From NCBI RefSeq assembly GCF_014836935.1, contig NZ_JACSPW010000018.1, positions 1 through 61,348 of the forward strand: a stretch of DNA of 61,348 nt, read 5' to 3'. Below the pieces are notes generated by a model, which did not search any database, was not told where the DNA came from, and saw only the letters and a program-made list of their open reading frames with translations. Origin of the DNA: Solibacillus merdavium (GTDB lineage Bacteria; Bacillota; Bacilli; Bacillales_A; Planococcaceae). Within the stretch, counting starts at the first letter, position 1. Every line of letters begins with the position of its first letter. Below are positions 20,594 through 58,664 of the stretch, piece by piece. A program made the position numbers and the translations under genes.

Positions 20594-21383
<790 letters not shown>

Positions 21384-21414
21384 AAAGTTATTAAGTTTAA
21401 TATTGAATGTCCCA

Positions 21415-24054: not shown

Positions 24055-24290
24055 GTAAAAAGAAAAACCACCACAAGTTTTTGTGATGGTTATAATTACA
24101 CCTCATCAAACTTGAAAGATAGCTCAACACATGCTTACACATGTGACAGTTCTGTTCCTTATCGGAGACAGCCCCAGCGTTATATTTAAGAAGAAAAATA
24201 ACACTTCGGCAATCATTCCTTTCATAAAGCTTCACAGATTCTTCTCAATCTCCGCTATACTAATTTTAATGATTGCGACCTCTACCCCAT
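24055..24290 (-). promoter_or_regulatory. Lysine riboswitch (L-box) with terminator
   Basis: On the minus strand, from about 24290 to 24140, the conserved L-box landmarks appear in order: GGTAGAGGTCGCAATC, AGTATAG, GGAGA, ATTCTGTGAAG, GAAAGGAATGATTGCCGAAG, GCTGGGGCTGTC and AACAGAACTGTCAC. Downstream a perfect 11-bp stem with wobble pairs (plus 24066-24076 and 24081-24091) is followed by TTTTTCTTTTT, an intrinsic terminator. Lysine binding should favour termination before lysP. The match leaves little doubt about the class. Confidence 0.93.
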
Positions 24291-24333
24291 ACATTTACAT
24301 GAGGTAATATATTTAATTGAAATAATGATTATT

Positions 24334-35173: not shown

Positions 35174-35293
35174 TTAGAACTTTTTGGCTGATATTAGAAG
35201 GTTCGAAGCACATTTTAGAAGTTCGAGCACTGATATTAGAAAGTTTCAGAGGTTTTTACTATGAAGCATTTATTAGAAAGCATAGCCGAACTC
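35174..35293. repeat. 20-21-bp-period intergenic array (TTAGAA type)
   Basis: TTAGAA occurs at 35174, 35194, 35215, 35236 and 35273, each preceded by AT or TT. Steps are 20, 21, 21 and 37 bp (the last about two units with a degenerate copy). The spacers are unrelated, except that GAGCGATATTAGAA and GTTTCAGAGGTTTTT recur in the array at 41.5 kb. It lies in the divergent gap between the rtcB operon and the LysR-domain gene. Confidence 0.75.
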
Positions 35294-41481: not shown

Positions 41482-41560
41482 TTAAGAAATCGAGCGATAT
41501 TAGAAGTTTCAGAGGTTTTTTAGAAACTCCTCATACTTATTAGAAAACCAAAGTTGTTCC
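41482..41560. repeat. 20-bp-period intergenic array (TTAGAA type)
   Basis: TTAGAA at 41500, 41520 and 41540, exactly 20 bp apart, with a degenerate TTAAGAA at 41482. The block is bounded by the terminators of two convergent operons (tcy and hut). The stretches GAGCGATATTAGAA and GTTTCAGAGGTTTTT are shared with the 35.2-kb array. Confidence 0.7.
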
Positions 41561-50840: not shown

Positions 50841-52328
50841 ATGACAAACGAACGTTTAACAACAATTACTGGTGCTCCAGTAGTATCAAACGATGATTCA
50901 CAAACAGCTGGTCGTCGTGGTCCAATTTTATTACAAGATGTATTTCTAATTGAGAAATTAGCAAACTTTAACCGTGAAGTAATTCCTGAGCGTCGTATGC
51001 ACGCAAAAGGTTCTGGTGCATTCGGTACATTCACTGTAACTCATGACATCACAAAATATACAAAAGCAAAAATTTTCTCTGAAGTTGGTAAGAAAACAGA
51101 AATGTTCGCACGATTCTCAACTGTAGCAGGTGAGCGTGGTGCGGCTGATGCTGAACGTGATATTCGCGGTTTTGCATTAAAATTCTACACTGAAGAAGGT
51201 AACTGGGATATGGTTGGTAACAACACACCTGTATTCTTCTTCCGTGATCCTTTACACTTCCCAGACTTAAACCACGTTGTTAAGCGTGATCCAAAAACAA
51301 ACATGCACAACGGTAACTCAAACTGGGATTTCTGGACTTCATTACCAGAAGCATTACACCAAGTAACAATCGTAATGTCTGACCGTGGTATTCCAAACGG
51401 TTACCGCAAAATGCACGGATTCGGTTCTCATACTTACTCAATGATTAACGAAGGTGGCGAACGCGTATACGTGAAATTCCACTTCCGTTCTCAACAAGGT
51501 ATCGAAAACTTAACAGGTGCAGAAGCTGCTGAAATTATCGGTAAAGACCGCGAATCTTCACAGCGTGACCTATTCGAGTCAATCGAAAAAGGCGATTTCC
51601 CGAAATGGAAAATGTACATCCAAGTGATGACAGAAGAGCAAGCACGCAATTCTAAGGACAACCCATTCGACTTAACAAAAGTTTGGTACAAATCTGAGTA
51701 CCCACTAATAGAAGTTGGGGAATTCGAATTAAACCGTAACCCGGAAAACTACTTTGCTGATGTTGAGCAGGCTGCATTCGCTCCATCAAACGTAGTACCT
51801 GGTATTTCATTCTCACCAGACCGCATGTTACAAGCTCGTTTATTCGCATACCAAGATGCAACTCGTTACCGTTTAGGCGTTAACCACCACCAAATTCCAG
51901 TAAACACACCAAAATGCCCATTCATGGTTTACCACCGCGATGGCGTAGGTCGTGCTGATGGAAACCGTGGTGCAGCTATTACTTACTATCCAAATAGCTA
52001 CGGTGCATTACAAGGTCAATCACAATACAAAGATCCTGCATTAGCTCTTGATGGTCCAGCTGATATCTACGACTTCCGTGAAGATGACAACAACTACTTC
52101 GAGCAACCAGGTAAGTTATTCCGTCTTCAAACGCCGGAACAACAACAACGTCTATTCGAAACAACTGCTGCTGAAATGAACGGTGTTGAAGAATTCATCA
52201 AACGCCGCCACATTTTACACTGCTACTTAGCTGATCCAGCTTATGGTGAAGGTGTAGCGAAGGCAATGGGTCTTTCATTAGATGGTATGGACCTGTCTAA
52301 TCCATACGTTATGCATTCGCATAGTTAA
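50841..52328 (+). CDS. katA: Clade-3-type monofunctional heme catalase
   Basis: A 495-aa catalase degrading hydrogen peroxide to water and oxygen. The distal histidine lies in [14 protein letters not shown] (about residue 54), the essential Asn in [11 protein letters not shown], and the heme-ligand tyrosine in [14 protein letters not shown]. The length matches small-subunit bacterial KatA. The ATG follows TAGGGGGAAC. Its codon use is strongly biased, as expected of a highly expressed gene. A perfect terminator follows. Confidence 0.96.
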
Positions 52329-52437
52329 TTATGAATTTAGCTTCTTGCTCAGAGTCCTAAATTCAAAAGCTTTTCATTGATTTAGTTTTACTAGATTACG
52401 AAAGCGTTATTGATATCCAAACTATAATCGCTTACGG

Positions 52438-52473
52438 CCGCAAGTATCTTATTCAGATACTTGCGGTTTTTTT
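52438..52473 (+). terminator. Terminator of katA
   Basis: CCGCAAGTATCT (52438-52449) and AGATACTTGCGG (52455-52466) form a perfect 12-bp stem with a 5-nt loop, followed by seven T. It lies 110 bp after the katA stop; the sequence between shows no gene. Confidence 0.9.
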
Positions 52474-52489
52474 GAGCTGCTTTTAGTTA

Positions 52490-52674
52490 TTAGAAGATTT
52501 TTTGATTTTTTAGAAGCTTTGAGGGTGATTTTAGCACTTTCGACGGGGATATTAGCACCTTAAACATTCATTTTAGAAGACTTGAATGATATATTAGAAA
52601 GTCACAATTTTATTAGCACTTCTTTCATTTTATTAGAACATTCAGGTCACATTTTAGAACATCCATCCCCCACA
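52490..52674. repeat. Nine-unit 21-bp-period array (TTAGAA/TTAGCA type)
   Basis: TTAGAA or TTAGCA begins at 52490, 52510, 52531, 52552, 52573, 52594, 52613, 52633 and 52654. Steps are 20, 21, 21, 21, 21, 19, 20 and 21 bp. Each copy is preceded by AT, TA or TT, and the ~13-bp spacers are unrelated. The array exactly fills the space between the katA terminator and that of the convergent AEC gene. It is the longest of the four arrays in the window. Confidence 0.85.
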
Positions 52675-52682
52675 CAACCCAT

Positions 52683-52716
52683 AAAAAAAACCATGAAAAG
52701 AAATCTCTCTTCATGG
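52683..52716 (-). terminator. Terminator of the AEC permease gene
   Basis: On the minus strand CCATGAA and TTCATGG (52710-52716, 52691-52697) pair, followed by eight T. It lies 7 bp after the stop. Confidence 0.8.
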
Positions 52717-52722
52717 ACAATT

Positions 52723-53652
52723 TTATACAAATAAAATAGTTGATATATAAATAACAATGGTTACCGTTAAACAGCTAATAATGGTTGAAAATAAGACTGT
52801 CTGCGCAGCTGTTGCCGACTCAATATCATATTCAAGCGCTAAGCTGGAACTGTTCCGGGATGTCGGAAACGCACTGGCGATAAAGAGCGACTGTGCAACA
52901 ACACCGTCTAAGCCTAATGCGAAAATAATGAGTAATGCTACGGCTGGGCCGATGACTAACCTTGTGAAGCAGCTGACAAAAATTGTTTTATTGAACATTG
53001 TACGCATTTCAATCGTTGAAAGCTGTGCTCCTAACGTAATAAGGGCCACTGCTACAAAGCCATCTGCAATATGTTCGAGCGGTATGCTGAACGTCTCTGG
53101 GATGGGTACACTAAAATAATTCAATGCAGCACCTAGTATAAGTGCGTGCACTATGGGCATTTTCAAAAAGTCCCGTACAATTGCCAATCCTGACTTTGTA
53201 GAAGAAATTAGATTATACAGTCCGTAAGTATACGTCGTCATATTTTGAAAAATTACGAGAATGACTTGTATCGCTACTCCGATTGGCTGTGTCGCAAAAA
53301 TCATCTGAGCGACTGGAATTCCGTAGTTACCTGAGTTAATAAGAACCACACTATTTTTGAAAACAGCAGACTCTTTTTTATCGAGCTTTAATAGCCTTGC
53401 CAGTAGCTGACTAAGCAGCATTTGAGAGCCAATAAATAAAATAATGAAAATCGTAATTTGCCCGAGAACACTCATTTCAATAGAAGTTTCATATATATTG
53501 ATAAAAACGGCCGCGGGCATGAAGCAGTATGTAATAAGGTGTGATAATGCTTTTAAATTAAATTGAAACTTGCGCTGTAAGATAGCGCCGATGATAAGCA
53601 ATACTAAAATAGGTGCGACAATCTTGAAGAAAATCATCGATAAATAGACCAT
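52723..53652 (-). CDS. AEC-family (auxin efflux carrier-like) transporter
   Basis: A 309-aa membrane protein with ten helices in two five-helix halves, the AEC layout. The NSGNYGIPVAQMIFA segment in the first half is the most conserved family motif. Bacterial AEC proteins carry malate, other organic acids or amino acids; the substrate here is unknown. The ATG at 53652 follows AAGGAGTG. Confidence 0.82.
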   Translation of the reverse strand: MVYLSMIFFKIVAPILVLLIIGAILQRKFQFNLKALSHLITYCFMPAAVFINIYETSIEMSVLGQITIFIILFIGSQMLLSQLLARLLKLDKKESAVFKNSVVLINSGNYGIPVAQMIFATQPIGVAIQVILVIFQNMTTYTYGLYNLISSTKSGLAIVRDFLKMPIVHALILGAALNYFSVPIPETFSIPLEHIADGFVAVALITLGAQLSTIEMRTMFNKTIFVSCFTRLVIGPAVALLIIFALGLDGVVAQSLFIASAFPTSRNSSSLALEYDIESATAAQTVLFSTIISCLTVTIVIYISTILFV

Positions 53653-53778: not shown

Positions 53779-56700
53779 TTATAAGTAATCAATTGCGCTT
53801 AATGCTTTATAAAATAGCTCAGCAAATTCACCACGTGATAGTGTTTGTGTTGGATTGAATGCACCCGTTCCATCCACTACACCGAATTGCTCTAAAATAG
53901 AGATGCTTTGACGTGCTTCAAATGATAGGTTTGCTATATCACGATAATTTGATGTTAAATCATTATACCCCTTTGATAAATCTTGATTTAAATAGCGGTA
54001 TATGTTTGCAATAATAATGGCAGCTTCCTGCTTTGTAATAGGGGCAGTTGGGTTAAAGCGTGAAGATGTAGCTCCACTCATAATTCCCGCCTCTAATAAT
54101 CCTTGTGCGAGCTGTGATTGCTTTGTATTTTCTAAGTCTAGATATTCTGATTTTGAGTTGCCTGATAAATCAAGTGCCGAAGCAATCATTGTCATAGCAT
54201 CCAGCTTGTTTACTTGTTTATAGCTTTCAACAAGACGGTTTGTCGTATTGAATGTAATACCGCGCTTGGCCAATTCACGAATTGCATTACCTTGTGCGGT
54301 GTTTTGAATATCTGTATATCGAATATCGCTTGTAGTCGACTTAAAAGTACCACCCGATGTTGTACGAATGATGAAATTCGAACCATCTACTTTAAATGAG
54401 GCAGGAGACGTACCAGTTGCTGTAACACGCTCAATTATTTGAGAAGCGTTCGCCTTTAATGTGCTTATCGGAACACGAATTTCAACATAGCTTGAGAAGG
54501 TTTTTGCATGATTACCTTCTGTAAATTGAATGTTTAACTGATTATTAGTAATATTTAAAGCTACTCCTATTGCAGCAGTAGATGCTTGAATTTCTGATGT
54601 CGGAATAATAATTTCAACATCGCCAGCTTTTAGGCGCATATTGCGATCGGCTATATTTTTCACTTGTGTTGACGTAATTTGCGTTGTATAGCGACCATTT
54701 TGATACGTCATTGTTTCATATTGTGTCCAATTCGCTGTTTTAGGAACTTTTGTTGCCATGGAACTTGGTGTTCGGATAGAATCATCTGGAATGTAGAGTG
54801 GGTCATATGTTGGTTTTTCGACCACAATCGCACCTGGTTTTACTGCATGGACATAATCTGGATAATATGTGTATACAAGTTCAAGATATTGTGGGTCATT
54901 CCACATAGTTTCAAGACGTACAAGCTTTTCTAAAGTTGTGACATGTCTTTTCGCTTCGGCTGCTAAATTATTATATAGCGAACGCGCTCTTGCAATTTCC
55001 TGCGTTGTTGAATTGCGGGTAATCGTATCCATATATAAATCAAATGCATTTGCATCAAGCTTAGCCTGCTTCACAACTGTATTCTGATAAATTACCTGGT
55101 TTTCAGCATCAATTAATAGATACAAGTTTGTGACAAGTGATTTTGCAAGATCGCTTAGCGCATTGTACGCCATACGAATACTTTTGATTTGTGCTTCTGT
55201 ATATTTTGTTTTGTCGATACGGTTGATACGATCCATTACTGTTTTTGCTTCTTTTTCGGCTTGTTCTGTTTGGGTTGCTAATAAAGACTCGAAATACACT
55301 AAATTTTGTAAAACTCGTTCATTTATTAACTTTTTACCCTCTTCAGTTAATGCTTCATAAGCAGCCCGAGCAGCTTTAATCTCTCCAGATGTTGATTCAT
55401 TATTTAGGACTTGAATCATTTCGATTACTCTTTCAGATGCTGCTTTGTTTGTAAGTTCTACTTCTAACTCCTCTAAAGCGAATAAAAGGATATCAAGTTT
55501 ACCGTAATTGTTAATTTTTTCTTGTTGGTCCTGTGAAAGACTATTATAAGCTTCCCGAACCTTTTCAATGTCCTCTTTAGTGGATTGGTTATTTAATGCT
55601 TCAATTGCTTTATTCACATCATCAATAGCTTTTTGGAAGACTGCTTCGTCATTTGATACCTTTTCCCATAAAGCAATTAAGTCCTCTTTGTTATTTACAA
55701 GATTCTTAGCCTCTGCCGTTAGGGCTTGATACTCCTGATAAACAGATTGCACCTCCATATAGGAAGACTGTTCAGTTAATTCCTTAATTTTATTGATAAC
55801 TGTCTGAGCATCTTTAGCATACCCATCTTCCATTATCCGCGCTTCTTGTTCAACTAAATTTTTTAGTTCTTCGGTAAAGAACATCTCAAATCTGTTATCT
55901 GTAGCTAGTAAATCCGTATATCGCTGTCTTATTTCTTGAATAACCACTGCCATAGATCCGTTATGAAGTGCTGCCATATCTTTTAATAGTGGCTGACCAA
56001 GCGTAGTAGCTAAGTTTTTTAATTTACGGTATTCAAGTAATTTCTCTCTAACCTCTGCTGATAATAAAGCAAGTACTTGTTCAACTGTAATATTTAATTT
56101 TGTAGCCACTACACTAACTGAATCTGCGGAAGTTATTTGACTAACCAAACTGTCTAATGAACCCATATTGGCAAAATCAAGATTTGTTATGGACGTTATT
56201 AATGCATTTAATGCTGTGTCTTCAGAAAGCCCGTTTAAACGGTTTATAAGCGTTGTAAATTTATTAGTATTTTCTACTGAAATAGCGGCTTTTTGGGATT
56301 GCTTCATTTCATCATAGACTTTTTTTGCTTCTCGTACTTTTTCAACCAATTCTTCAGTTACCTGCTCGGAAGTCGTAAGATCATCCATTAATAGATTAAA
56401 GCGCTCGATTTGATTATTCATAGATTGCATTAAAGCTAGCTTATCTCTAACTATATTTCCGTCTGTGCTGCTCATGAGGTGTTTTTGACTGATTAAAAGA
56501 TCATCGTACTGGATTTGGATATCCTTCATACTTGTTAGAAAGTCTGTGGCACTTTCATCTATTATTTTTACTGCATGAATGAAATCCTGGGCCTCTCCAC
56601 GAAGTTCCTCTGTACGTTGGCGGTACGCCTCAATATCTCCTAACCCTTGAATACCAAAACGAATTGATGGTAAGTAGCCATCATATTTCTTTAAAAAATC

Positions 56701-58485
56701 TTCAACAAATACAATAAATTCTGGAATTTCCTCAAATGGATCACCGTTTTTCACGCCTTCTACTTTCGTATCTAAATCCTTTTTCAGTTTACGAGCTGCC
56801 TCTACTTTTTTTACTGCCTCTTGAAGTATAGGGTAATTATAAACAGCGCTTTTATTATTAAGAGTGTTATAACCACTTAAGGCATCATCTACTTTTTTTA
56901 CATACTCTGCACTCATCTCATCTAAATCATTAATAAGATCAATAATTACAGAGCTATTTACATCTCCTAGCGAAAATGATTTCTCAATTTTTTGCAGTTC
57001 AAAATAATTGGTCACTAGTAATTGCTGTTGTTCAGTTAACTCCATATAATGTTGGCGTGCAACCATTACAGCATTTTTAAACGAAGGTGTTGTTTGATTT
57101 GCTGTGTCTATCAATTTTTGAATTTCAATAATAACTTTATTTGCTTTCTCTTCGTTTAAATCATTCATACGTGCCAATGGTAAGAAGCCAGGAGAGCCCT
57201 CTACTGGGGTATAAGTTAAAATATTTGTACCTAACTTAATCGACTGCAACTGCTCCTTCAACACTAATTCAGGTTTTTTTGATGAATCAAGATCATAACG
57301 ATATAAATACTTTCCTTGACTATCATTTATAAAGTAAAGGTATTTTCCTACAGTTTCAATATTTGCAGAGTCACCAGAAGTTTGCTCGTAATATACGATT
57401 CGACCTGTTCCTGTTGTTGCATCTATACGATCAATAGCTAATGGTGTTGCTGTAAGTGAAGCTAAATCTAATTGATAAATTTCGCCAGATGAATGCGCAT
57501 TAGGATAATAAATATGTGTGCTTGATTGTGCTTGGTTATCAATTGTTTTGAAGTGATTGTATGTAGTAGACGTAATTGTTAACCCTTCTGCTCCATTTGC
57601 AATACGACGCTCATTTGGTGTGTTTGTTAAAAAATAGCGGTATTGAATAAGCTTGTCACTTTTTATTGCTGTATCATTACTGCCTGCATCTAGGTGATAC
57701 AATTGTGTACCGATTTTCACCACATTCCATGAGCGGTATTCACCATTCACAATTCCATATACATACTTAACATCAATGGAAGGTACCTGCTTTAATAACG
57801 TGTACATCCACAAAGCATATGCATGAGAAGATAAACCGCTTGTCGGAATTAAATGATGATTTCCCTCTACATAATTTGTATTATGAACTACGTAATCATG
57901 AATAATTTTAATTTTAGCAACGTCATTTGGTGCTGCCTCTACCTTCGTTTTAATATCATCATATTTAGCTTTTGCAGCATTCAGATTCTTTGGTTGATTA
58001 TTTGTAATAGTATCGTAATAATTTAAAGAGAACTCTAATTTTACAGAAGTTGCATCATCTGCTTTCGTTTCGGTCGCTTTCATTCGCATATTATTAAAGA
58101 GGCCATATATTTCTGTTACATCAAATGTTGCTGTGTCATTGGATGTTGTAGTCACAGTTTTTTGGGTATTTAAACTGTTCGTCAACTCCGCCATTAGCTG
58201 CTCTATTAATATTTCATATGATGCAATTTTTGGACCTGTATACATTACTGTAAAACCTTTATTAAATTTAGACATTTCAATAAGAATTTGATTTTTTAAA
58301 TCTTCTTCATCATTGATTAAGAATAATTTGGTACTTGACTGAGTTAAAATAGTTGAGCTACCAGTAAAAATATTTTGTATGTCGAACGTTTGTGTAATTG
58401 TTACTTCTTCAGCTTGCACTTCCCCTGCCACAACAACACTCGCAGGAATGGCAACTAACGCTGCTAGTATTTTTTTTGATTTCAT
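53779..58485 (-). CDS. Giant SLH-anchored surface protein with degenerate transglutaminase domain
   Basis: About 1,568 aa. A signal peptide (cut after VQA, about 25) leads to a transglutaminase-like domain at about 190-275, then a 57-72 kDa-size helical region of repeated ~70-residue units (about 440-1210; for example LNNQSTKEDIEKVREAYNSL), and three C-terminal SLH repeats (about 1400-1568; for example FNPTAPITKQEAAIIIANIY) that bind pyruvylated wall polymer. In the transglutaminase part the catalytic Cys and His positions read Ser (GLSSHAYA, YRSWNVV), so it is probably inactive. The ATG at 58485 follows AAGGAGAAG. It is likely an S-layer-associated protein. Confidence 0.85.
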   Translation of the reverse strand: MKSKKILAALVAIPASVVVAGEVQAEEVTITQTFDIQNIFTGSSTILTQSSTKLFLINDEEDLKNQILIEMSKFNKGFTVMYTGPKIASYEILIEQLMAELTNSLNTQKTVTTTSNDTATFDVTEIYGLFNNMRMKATETKADDATSVKLEFSLNYYDTITNNQPKNLNAAKAKYDDIKTKVEAAPNDVAKIKIIHDYVVHNTNYVEGNHHLIPTSGLSSHAYALWMYTLLKQVPSIDVKYVYGIVNGEYRSWNVVKIGTQLYHLDAGSNDTAIKSDKLIQYRYFLTNTPNERRIANGAEGLTITSTTYNHFKTIDNQAQSSTHIYYPNAHSSGEIYQLDLASLTATPLAIDRIDATTGTGRIVYYEQTSGDSANIETVGKYLYFINDSQGKYLYRYDLDSSKKPELVLKEQLQSIKLGTNILTYTPVEGSPGFLPLARMNDLNEEKANKVIIEIQKLIDTANQTTPSFKNAVMVARQHYMELTEQQQLLVTNYFELQKIEKSFSLGDVNSSVIIDLINDLDEMSAEYVKKVDDALSGYNTLNNKSAVYNYPILQEAVKKVEAARKLKKDLDTKVEGVKNGDPFEEIPEFIVFVEDFLKKYDGYLPSIRFGIQGLGDIEAYRQRTEELRGEAQDFIHAVKIIDESATDFLTSMKDIQIQYDDLLISQKHLMSSTDGNIVRDKLALMQSMNNQIERFNLLMDDLTTSEQVTEELVEKVREAKKVYDEMKQSQKAAISVENTNKFTTLINRLNGLSEDTALNALITSITNLDFANMGSLDSLVSQITSADSVSVVATKLNITVEQVLALLSAEVREKLLEYRKLKNLATTLGQPLLKDMAALHNGSMAVVIQEIRQRYTDLLATDNRFEMFFTEELKNLVEQEARIMEDGYAKDAQTVINKIKELTEQSSYMEVQSVYQEYQALTAEAKNLVNNKEDLIALWEKVSNDEAVFQKAIDDVNKAIEALNNQSTKEDIEKVREAYNSLSQDQQEKINNYGKLDILLFALEELEVELTNKAASERVIEMIQVLNNESTSGEIKAARAAYEALTEEGKKLINERVLQNLVYFESLLATQTEQAEKEAKTVMDRINRIDKTKYTEAQIKSIRMAYNALSDLAKSLVTNLYLLIDAENQVIYQNTVVKQAKLDANAFDLYMDTITRNSTTQEIARARSLYNNLAAEAKRHVTTLEKLVRLETMWNDPQYLELVYTYYPDYVHAVKPGAIVVEKPTYDPLYIPDDSIRTPSSMATKVPKTANWTQYETMTYQNGRYTTQITSTQVKNIADRNMRLKAGDVEIIIPTSEIQASTAAIGVALNITNNQLNIQFTEGNHAKTFSSYVEIRVPISTLKANASQIIERVTATGTSPASFKVDGSNFIIRTTSGGTFKSTTSDIRYTDIQNTAQGNAIRELAKRGITFNTTNRLVESYKQVNKLDAMTMIASALDLSGNSKSEYLDLENTKQSQLAQGLLEAGIMSGATSSRFNPTAPITKQEAAIIIANIYRYLNQDLSKGYNDLTSNYRDIANLSFEARQSISILEQFGVVDGTGAFNPTQTLSRGEFAELFYKALSAIDYL

Positions 58486-58664
58486 ATATGACACTTCTCC
58501 TTCTCGCCTCTATTTATGTATAAAAATCTATTACTTTTTATATCGGTTCATATACCATATTTTAGAACAAAAATAGGTAACATATCATAAAATATAGGAT
58601 ATTTACTATTGTGTAGCTAGATTCCATAAATAGTCATGCCATACCCTTTTCATAATTTATCAAT

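Follow-up and report, generated by a model that had tools for sequence, protein, structure and literature searches.

Plasmid iterons and partition centromeres (pSK41 parC, tubC) are made of direct repeats spaced at one or two helical turns, with an oligomeric protein along one face of the DNA; they are single loci beside their own gene, and their repeats are near-identical. REP/BIME elements are lineage-specific repeats dispersed outside genes, at gene 3' ends, the REPs being GC-rich palindromes, and CRISPR arrays combine near-identical repeats of 23–50 bp with unrelated spacers. DNA uptake sequences are short motifs, single or paired, which have lineage-specific variants and occur in many copies per genome, often at terminators. 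Dialects of these sequences are the subject of a study of Neisseriaceae (PMC3630211). The arrays reported here, one of which lies in a 61,348-nucleotide stretch of a Solibacillus genome (the window, i.e. the whole stretch of DNA that was analysed), resemble several of these systems in part. As in iterons and partition centromeres, they consist of tandem direct repeats at whole helical turns (steps of 19–21 bp, and of 20–22 bp only in the de novo search below), but they occupy many dispersed chromosomal loci, their spacers drift, and no reader gene was recognised among the array neighbours scanned (20 of 42). They share with DNA uptake sequences a short motif, lineage-specific variants and many copies per genome, and differ from them in being phased at 21 bp. 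Like REP/BIME, they are dispersed, extragenic, lineage-specific and found at gene 3' ends; unlike REPs, they are direct repeats of an AT-rich core, with neither covariation nor a palindromic, hairpin-forming unit. No description of such phased arrays was found in the accessible part of the open-licence literature.

The window array and its surroundings are given in Table 1. The first-pass annotation of this DNA had placed nine copies of TTAG(A/C)A on the + strand, and every one of its positions proved exact; the step order is 20,21,21,21,21,19,20,21. It had also described a conserved core of 6–8 bp, which is indeed kept but is better written WTWTTAGMA: a T two bases before TTAGMA is found at each unit start in 20 of 20 elements and is unchanged in 96 of 96 orthologous units. 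Lone TTAGMA is not enriched in the window (97 copies, 110 expected); the phasing alone is, with 13 pairs of cores 19–21 bp apart, eight of them in the nine-core array, against a mean of 0.25 and a largest value of 2 in 100 dinucleotide shuffles. The proposal that all cores face one side of the helix is not exact: the recurrent 19- and 20-bp steps rotate the last three cores by about 70–140 degrees (by arithmetic, at 10.5 bp per turn). Terminator-like hairpins end at 52468 and, more weakly, at 52480 on the + strand and at 52691 on the - strand, so that the array does lie between convergent terminators; to say that it exactly fills the gap between them was slightly too strong, since some 10–20 bp are spare upstream and 30 bp downstream.

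Table 1. Phased arrays of the window and the features that surround the nine-core array (window positions)
Feature	Position	Strand	Details
Nine-core phased array	52490..52659	+	cores at 52490, 52510, 52531, 52552, 52573, 52594, 52613, 52633, 52654
Short 19-bp sixth interval, cores 6–7	52594..52618	+	TTAGAAAGTCACAATTTTATTAGCA
Intrinsic terminator-like hairpins with T-run, 3' of the catalase gene, directly 5' of the array	52436..52480	+	
Intrinsic terminator-like hairpin of the convergent gene, directly 3' of the array	52691..52716	-	
Catalase gene, upstream, directed at the array	50841..52328	+	PF00199, E 3.4e-187
Membrane transport protein gene, convergent, directed at the array	52723..53652	-	PF03547, E 5.1e-25
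Shorter array with the same core	35174..35241	+	four copies, steps 20,21,21
Remnant or minimal array with the same core	41500..41545	+	three copies, steps 20,20

A genome-wide excess of phased copies, on which the annotation had made its reading depend, was found: phased TTAGMA triplets number 108 (by contig, 26 forward and 82 reverse), whereas the reversed pattern, used as the control instead of shuffled intergenic DNA, gives 2. This Solibacillus genome holds at least 26 separate TTAGMA arrays. Within the genus, a stricter phased pattern matches 11 of 16 genomes, densely in eight (28–145 matches, this genome included) and with 7–9 matches in three; the other five have zero. Some weak matches to a looser pattern in the genus are coding. 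Two of the weak matches, one in G002 and one in G015, we take by eye to be XseB, and the uniform arrays of these two genomes read by eye as open Leu-Glu heptads. For the TTAGMA arrays themselves, coding and CRISPR had rightly been dismissed: steps of 19 and 20 bp break the frame, and the conservation is not codon-like; repeated cores and variable spacers are reminiscent of CRISPR, but the cores measure 6–9 bp and the spacers, of about 12 bp, diverge between orthologues through point mutations. When 84,980 species genomes, from which records close to the window's own may have been left out, were scanned for the step order 21,19,20 of the design, 11 stretches matched; ten belong to S. faecavium, the remaining one to an uncultured Aquimarina. 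The pattern search of plasmids was without match, and at least 120 stretches of viral contigs matched the looser pattern, the ones read by eye resembling coding heptad repeats. A sample of 342 kb from other genera (one contig for each of 20 genomes, up to its first 20 kb) contained no array; it was too small, as family-wide pattern searches afterwards found arrays. At 43 places inspected by eye in G001, no strand bias by replication polarity was evident.

Most of the arrays of this genome follow one design. A chain finder that imposed no step order, run on stretches fetched from this genome, gave 26 chains, 19 of which combine nine cores and dissimilar spacers with a sixth step of 19 bp; one of the 19 has an additional core in front. 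The usual order is 21 or 20, then 21,21,21,21,19,20, then 20 or 21. The nine-core design is also present in G005, G007 and G012, as well as in G001, where it was fetched by its 21,19 part. G007 and some other genomes have a longer form with a 4-core block, which mostly starts 144–145 bp upstream, and with a middle stretch similar from paralogue to paralogue. Across 46 non-redundant, diverged nine-core elements from four genomes the step vector recurs, with a mean identity of 57.5%, cores included; their spacers have little common sequence except for the sixth (AAATCG..ATTT) and a mild position-specific composition. Individual loci depart from the design. L047 (G000:C53:769-1141, G000 being this genome) is a composite TTAGMA array of greater length, in which segments of about 102–123 bp are internally duplicated; L308, 3' of enolase in G006, consists of several tandem blocks of the 4-core type with a repeated middle stretch between them, which suggests local amplification; and L307, 3' of enolase in G012, is a shortened TTAGMA array with few cores that is apparently decaying by unit loss.

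The strongest result is the contrast between cores and spacers in orthologous arrays. Between G000 and G005, 22 arrays were examined and 17 paired; five unequal or shorter pairs were dropped and 12 nine-core pairs counted, with substitutions at 21/648 core positions (3.2%) and 200/1107 spacer positions (18%). The 200-bp flanks of the same comparison have 1012/4572 substitutions (20–24%), and their 1825 gap columns are inflated by unequal flank lengths. For the other intact pairs, core and spacer substitutions are 12/270 and 205/461 between G000 and G001 (five pairs, with 222/435 in the 50-bp flanks), 14/270 and 171/462 between G000 and G007 (five pairs), 8/108 and 62/181 between G000 and G012 (two pairs), 18/485 and 199/830 between G012 and G001 (nine pairs), and 16/426 and 164/721 between G007 and G001 (eight pairs); G007 and G012 gave zero array pairs. 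Over six comparisons of intact arrays with 50-bp flanks, cores differ by 3.7–7.4%, spacers by 17–45% and flanks by 25–52%, and in arrays intact in both species core change is 4–10 times below spacer change. The spacing is kept too. Gap columns inside the arrays and in their 50-bp flanks number 42 vs 156 (G012–G001), 22 vs 220 (G007–G001), 36 vs 167 (G000–G005), 3 vs 130 (G000–G001), 3 vs 32 (G000–G012) and 2 vs 140 (G000–G007), which makes them, per aligned base, some 7–140 times rarer within arrays, and exact step vectors are identical in 7/9, 7/8, 7/13, 3/5, 0/2 and 3/5 pairs of the six comparisons.

Intact-pair comparisons take only arrays that can be chained in both genomes and hence favour conserved cores. 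A further comparison required no core in the second genome, the loci still being mostly fetched by pattern matches; core and spacer changes were then 36/762 (4.7%) and 247/1299 (19%) in 15 pairs with G005, 21/258 (8.1%) and 173/441 (39%) in five pairs with G001, and 17/324 (5.2%) and 200/554 (36%) in six pairs with G007, and the core value for G012 was 35/182 because two of its four regions are empty or half lost. A stricter count, which left the three best cores out of every pair and scored gaps as changes, to offset the fetch bias, gave core changes of 75/540 (G005), 33/180 (G001), 64/144 (G012) and 17/216 (G007), below the spacer change in three of the four comparisons. Seven of the 15 G000–G005 pairs are gap-free inside, four have one or two gap columns, and four have larger gaps, where stretches were lost or gained. 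From these stretches and the empty regions it follows that arrays are lost and are remodelled by whole units, standing arrays keeping their cores and spacing, and, as arrays come and go, that no single array is indispensable. In the comparison with related genomes, which the first-pass annotation had called for, orthologous arrays differ by 3–8% in cores and 17–45% in spacers. We infer purifying selection on cores and unit spacing, both being conserved across species as the spacers diverge, and the contrast speaks for a function of the arrays at their present sites.

The arrays adjoin gene ends. For the 22 arrays of at least six cores in this genome, considered with ORFs of at least 100 aa, both neighbours are directed at the array in ten, only the 5'-side gene in eight (one at a contig end), only the 3'-side gene in two and neither in two. 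In a set of 86 arrays from four genomes, orthologues included, 34 are arranged +A+, 33 +A-, 14 -A- and four -A+, with one undecided. With a loose detector, positive in 187 of 400 random windows, a terminator-like hairpin was found in the 5' flank of 68 of 81 arrays in sense orientation, against 31 in antisense; a convergent one lies 3' of 56 arrays, against 29, and 46 have both. The neighbour proteins scanned, 20 of 42, include enzymes, transporters, a chemoreceptor and Rho, among others, two of them without any family, and have no common function; no recurrent DNA-binding family was found among these 20.

Other cores occupy the 21-bp scaffold elsewhere in the family, namely AATAGYCA, ATGAGY, YGAGTA, GGACAAA and TCGCAAAT. 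At the end of the enolase gene some species have TTAGMA arrays and others 21-bp arrays of a different core: ATAATAGYCA at L316 (G013), TTATGAGYG at L315 (G011) and AAAGGACAAA at L321 (G014). When 400 kb from eight species were searched de novo, in stretches that were not random (six at catalase, six at enolase), six matches appeared at steps of 20–22 bp and none at any of nine further step ranges; two of the six (G013 and G014, at enolase) were known beforehand and two (G003) lie in one composite array. Family-wide, phased triplets of ATGAGY occur in 34 of 200 genomes and of AATAGYCA in 8, with tens to hundreds in few genomes and one or two in many, which may be chance or coding. One of the control patterns turned out to be a further core, YGAGTA, dense in G020, G064, G077 and G185, and TATGAGC was found in 4 of 250 genomes of a class sample, three of them within this family. 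Outside the TTAGMA clade the steps are mostly plain 21 bp, and the TCGCAAATA array of G013 steps by 20. An array of G003 with the core AATAGCCA matches TTAGMA arrays in its step order, 21x5,19, and in its 19-bp spacer, AAATCGCGATTT; judging from this one array, the scaffold stayed and the core changed. In G185 (G185:C1:1352812-1353718) and G077 (G077:C19:11131-11745), long 21-bp tandem arrays with the core CGAGTA have partly near-identical units and look minisatellite-like.

On balance we consider it probable that the arrays are a dispersed chromosomal element made of phased, putative protein-binding sites on double-stranded DNA. The best reading of the sequences is that they would be two-turn-phased sites for a putative oligomeric DNA-binding protein, placed at transcription-unit boundaries and written in lineage-specific core dialects. 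The binding platform suggested by the first-pass annotation is therefore the reading best supported by the conservation of cores and unit spacing amid drifting spacers, the protein itself being putative. In each unit a sequence-specific DNA-binding protein would contact about 9–13 bp; protomers on adjacent units, separated by two helical turns, would touch each other, and the array stretch would be coated or folded into one complex. As arrays adjoin gene ends, often between terminators, this complex might in addition act as a transcription-unit boundary, whether as a roadblock to read-through, a supercoil insulator or a chromosome-organising point. The specificity of the protein may shift between lineages, and the 21-bp scaffold would thus be shared by related species whose core dialects differ. 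More tentatively, the arrays could represent a new class of chromosomal element in Planococcaceae/Caryophanaceae, with a putative fast-evolving reader, in which the cores of an array or genome switch dialect in concert and the geometry, including the 19-bp sixth step, stays constant. If this were true, a chromosome-wide, co-evolving code would exist at transcription-unit ends. Kept cores and spacing, drifting spacers, many copies and lineage-specific cores are together a strong genomic sign of a putative DNA-organising protein at gene ends; finding the reader would reveal the way in which a bacterial family marks the limits of its transcription units, and also how specificity can change jointly in a protein and dozens of target sites.

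Among the alternatives, a non-autonomous mobile element survives best, although we regard it as unlikely. Copies would spread, and the cores, as binding sites of a transposase or recombinase, would persist because a copy must be readable in order to move. In three G007 paralogues the similarity sets in at the first core of a 4-core block and stops shortly after the final core, with unrelated sequence on either side, as expected of a discrete unit. Some spacer pairs exceed the similarity reached by column shuffling, the best within one genome standing at 0.70 against a largest value of 0.62 in 50 column shuffles; the mean identity, which such shuffling leaves unchanged, is uninformative in this comparison. 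Presence and absence at orthologous loci, as in a MITE or transposon, were also found: at the window locus, aligned in ten relatives (five further genus members were left out), G005 has an orthologous array and G001, G002, G004, G006, G007, G008, G009, G012 and G015 have none, the catalase terminator hairpin being kept in eight of these nine and different in G009. However, clear inverted ends were found neither at the window locus nor, by eye, at the ends of the G007 paralogues. Apart from the two terminators, the only inverted repeat there is a weak pair spanning the array (24 nt, 71% complementary), which lies away from the array ends; by eye no target duplication is evident at the empty sites, which are too rearranged to serve as a clean comparison, the remaining intergenic DNA having changed as well. 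Orthologous copies, which stay put, keep their cores while their spacers reach a difference of 36–45%, where a dead copy should decay. In G012 and G008, the interval between catalase and the convergent gene contains a common hairpin, CCCAAAAACCCATTTTTCTC...GAGAAAAATGGGTTTTT, at the place of the G000 array; it may be a further dispersed repeat of the terminator-like kind.

Protein-binding sites on double-stranded DNA also account for the data better than an element acting as RNA, either through UUAGMA sites for an RNA-binding protein in read-through transcripts or as a structured RNA, which we judge improbable. The arrays do tend to follow the direction of the preceding gene (+A+ over -A-, as counted above), and the + strand of the window array folds well against shuffles (z -3.7, against -0.5 for the - strand), but the orientation is not strict, the upstream terminators should stop most transcripts, and a spacing fixed at two turns would be difficult to account for in single-stranded RNA. 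The 46 elements are without covariation (z from -4.2 to 3.6 for pairs of variable columns at least 4 apart), and no Rfam family matches at the window array. Structured RNA was thus rejected as the main reading despite the good single-sequence fold, which is read as local given the absent covariation, the lack of an Rfam match and a curvature that is not raised. Intrinsic curvature was itself rejected as a candidate, with a mean z of -0.27 in the 46 elements relative to dinucleotide-shuffled sequence, as predicted from wedge parameters.

We give equally little credence to an architectural role of the arrays, in which gyrase or another conserved enzyme would wrap about 170 bp at transcription-unit ends, comparable to the role of REP/BIME in enterobacteria: the array length is near that of the gyrase wrap and the location at gene ends fits, but the cores vary between lineages, unlike the target of a conserved enzyme, and the DNA lacks intrinsic curvature. 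A degenerate minisatellite, in which slippage yields tandem 21-bp repeats that then decay, is very improbable and, as the sole explanation, largely refuted, because the period is 20–22 bp only and the cores of intact arrays change so much less than their spacers, even though the near-identical arrays of G077 and G185 and the internal duplications and lost units of TTAGMA arrays speak for it and slippage may explain how arrays lengthen or shorten.

Elsewhere in the window, on the - strand, there are a purine riboswitch (21300-21401), a lysine riboswitch (24112-24292) and, beyond the convergent gene, a 1571-aa ORF (53779-58494), the C-terminal part of which resembles S-layer homology repeats by eye.
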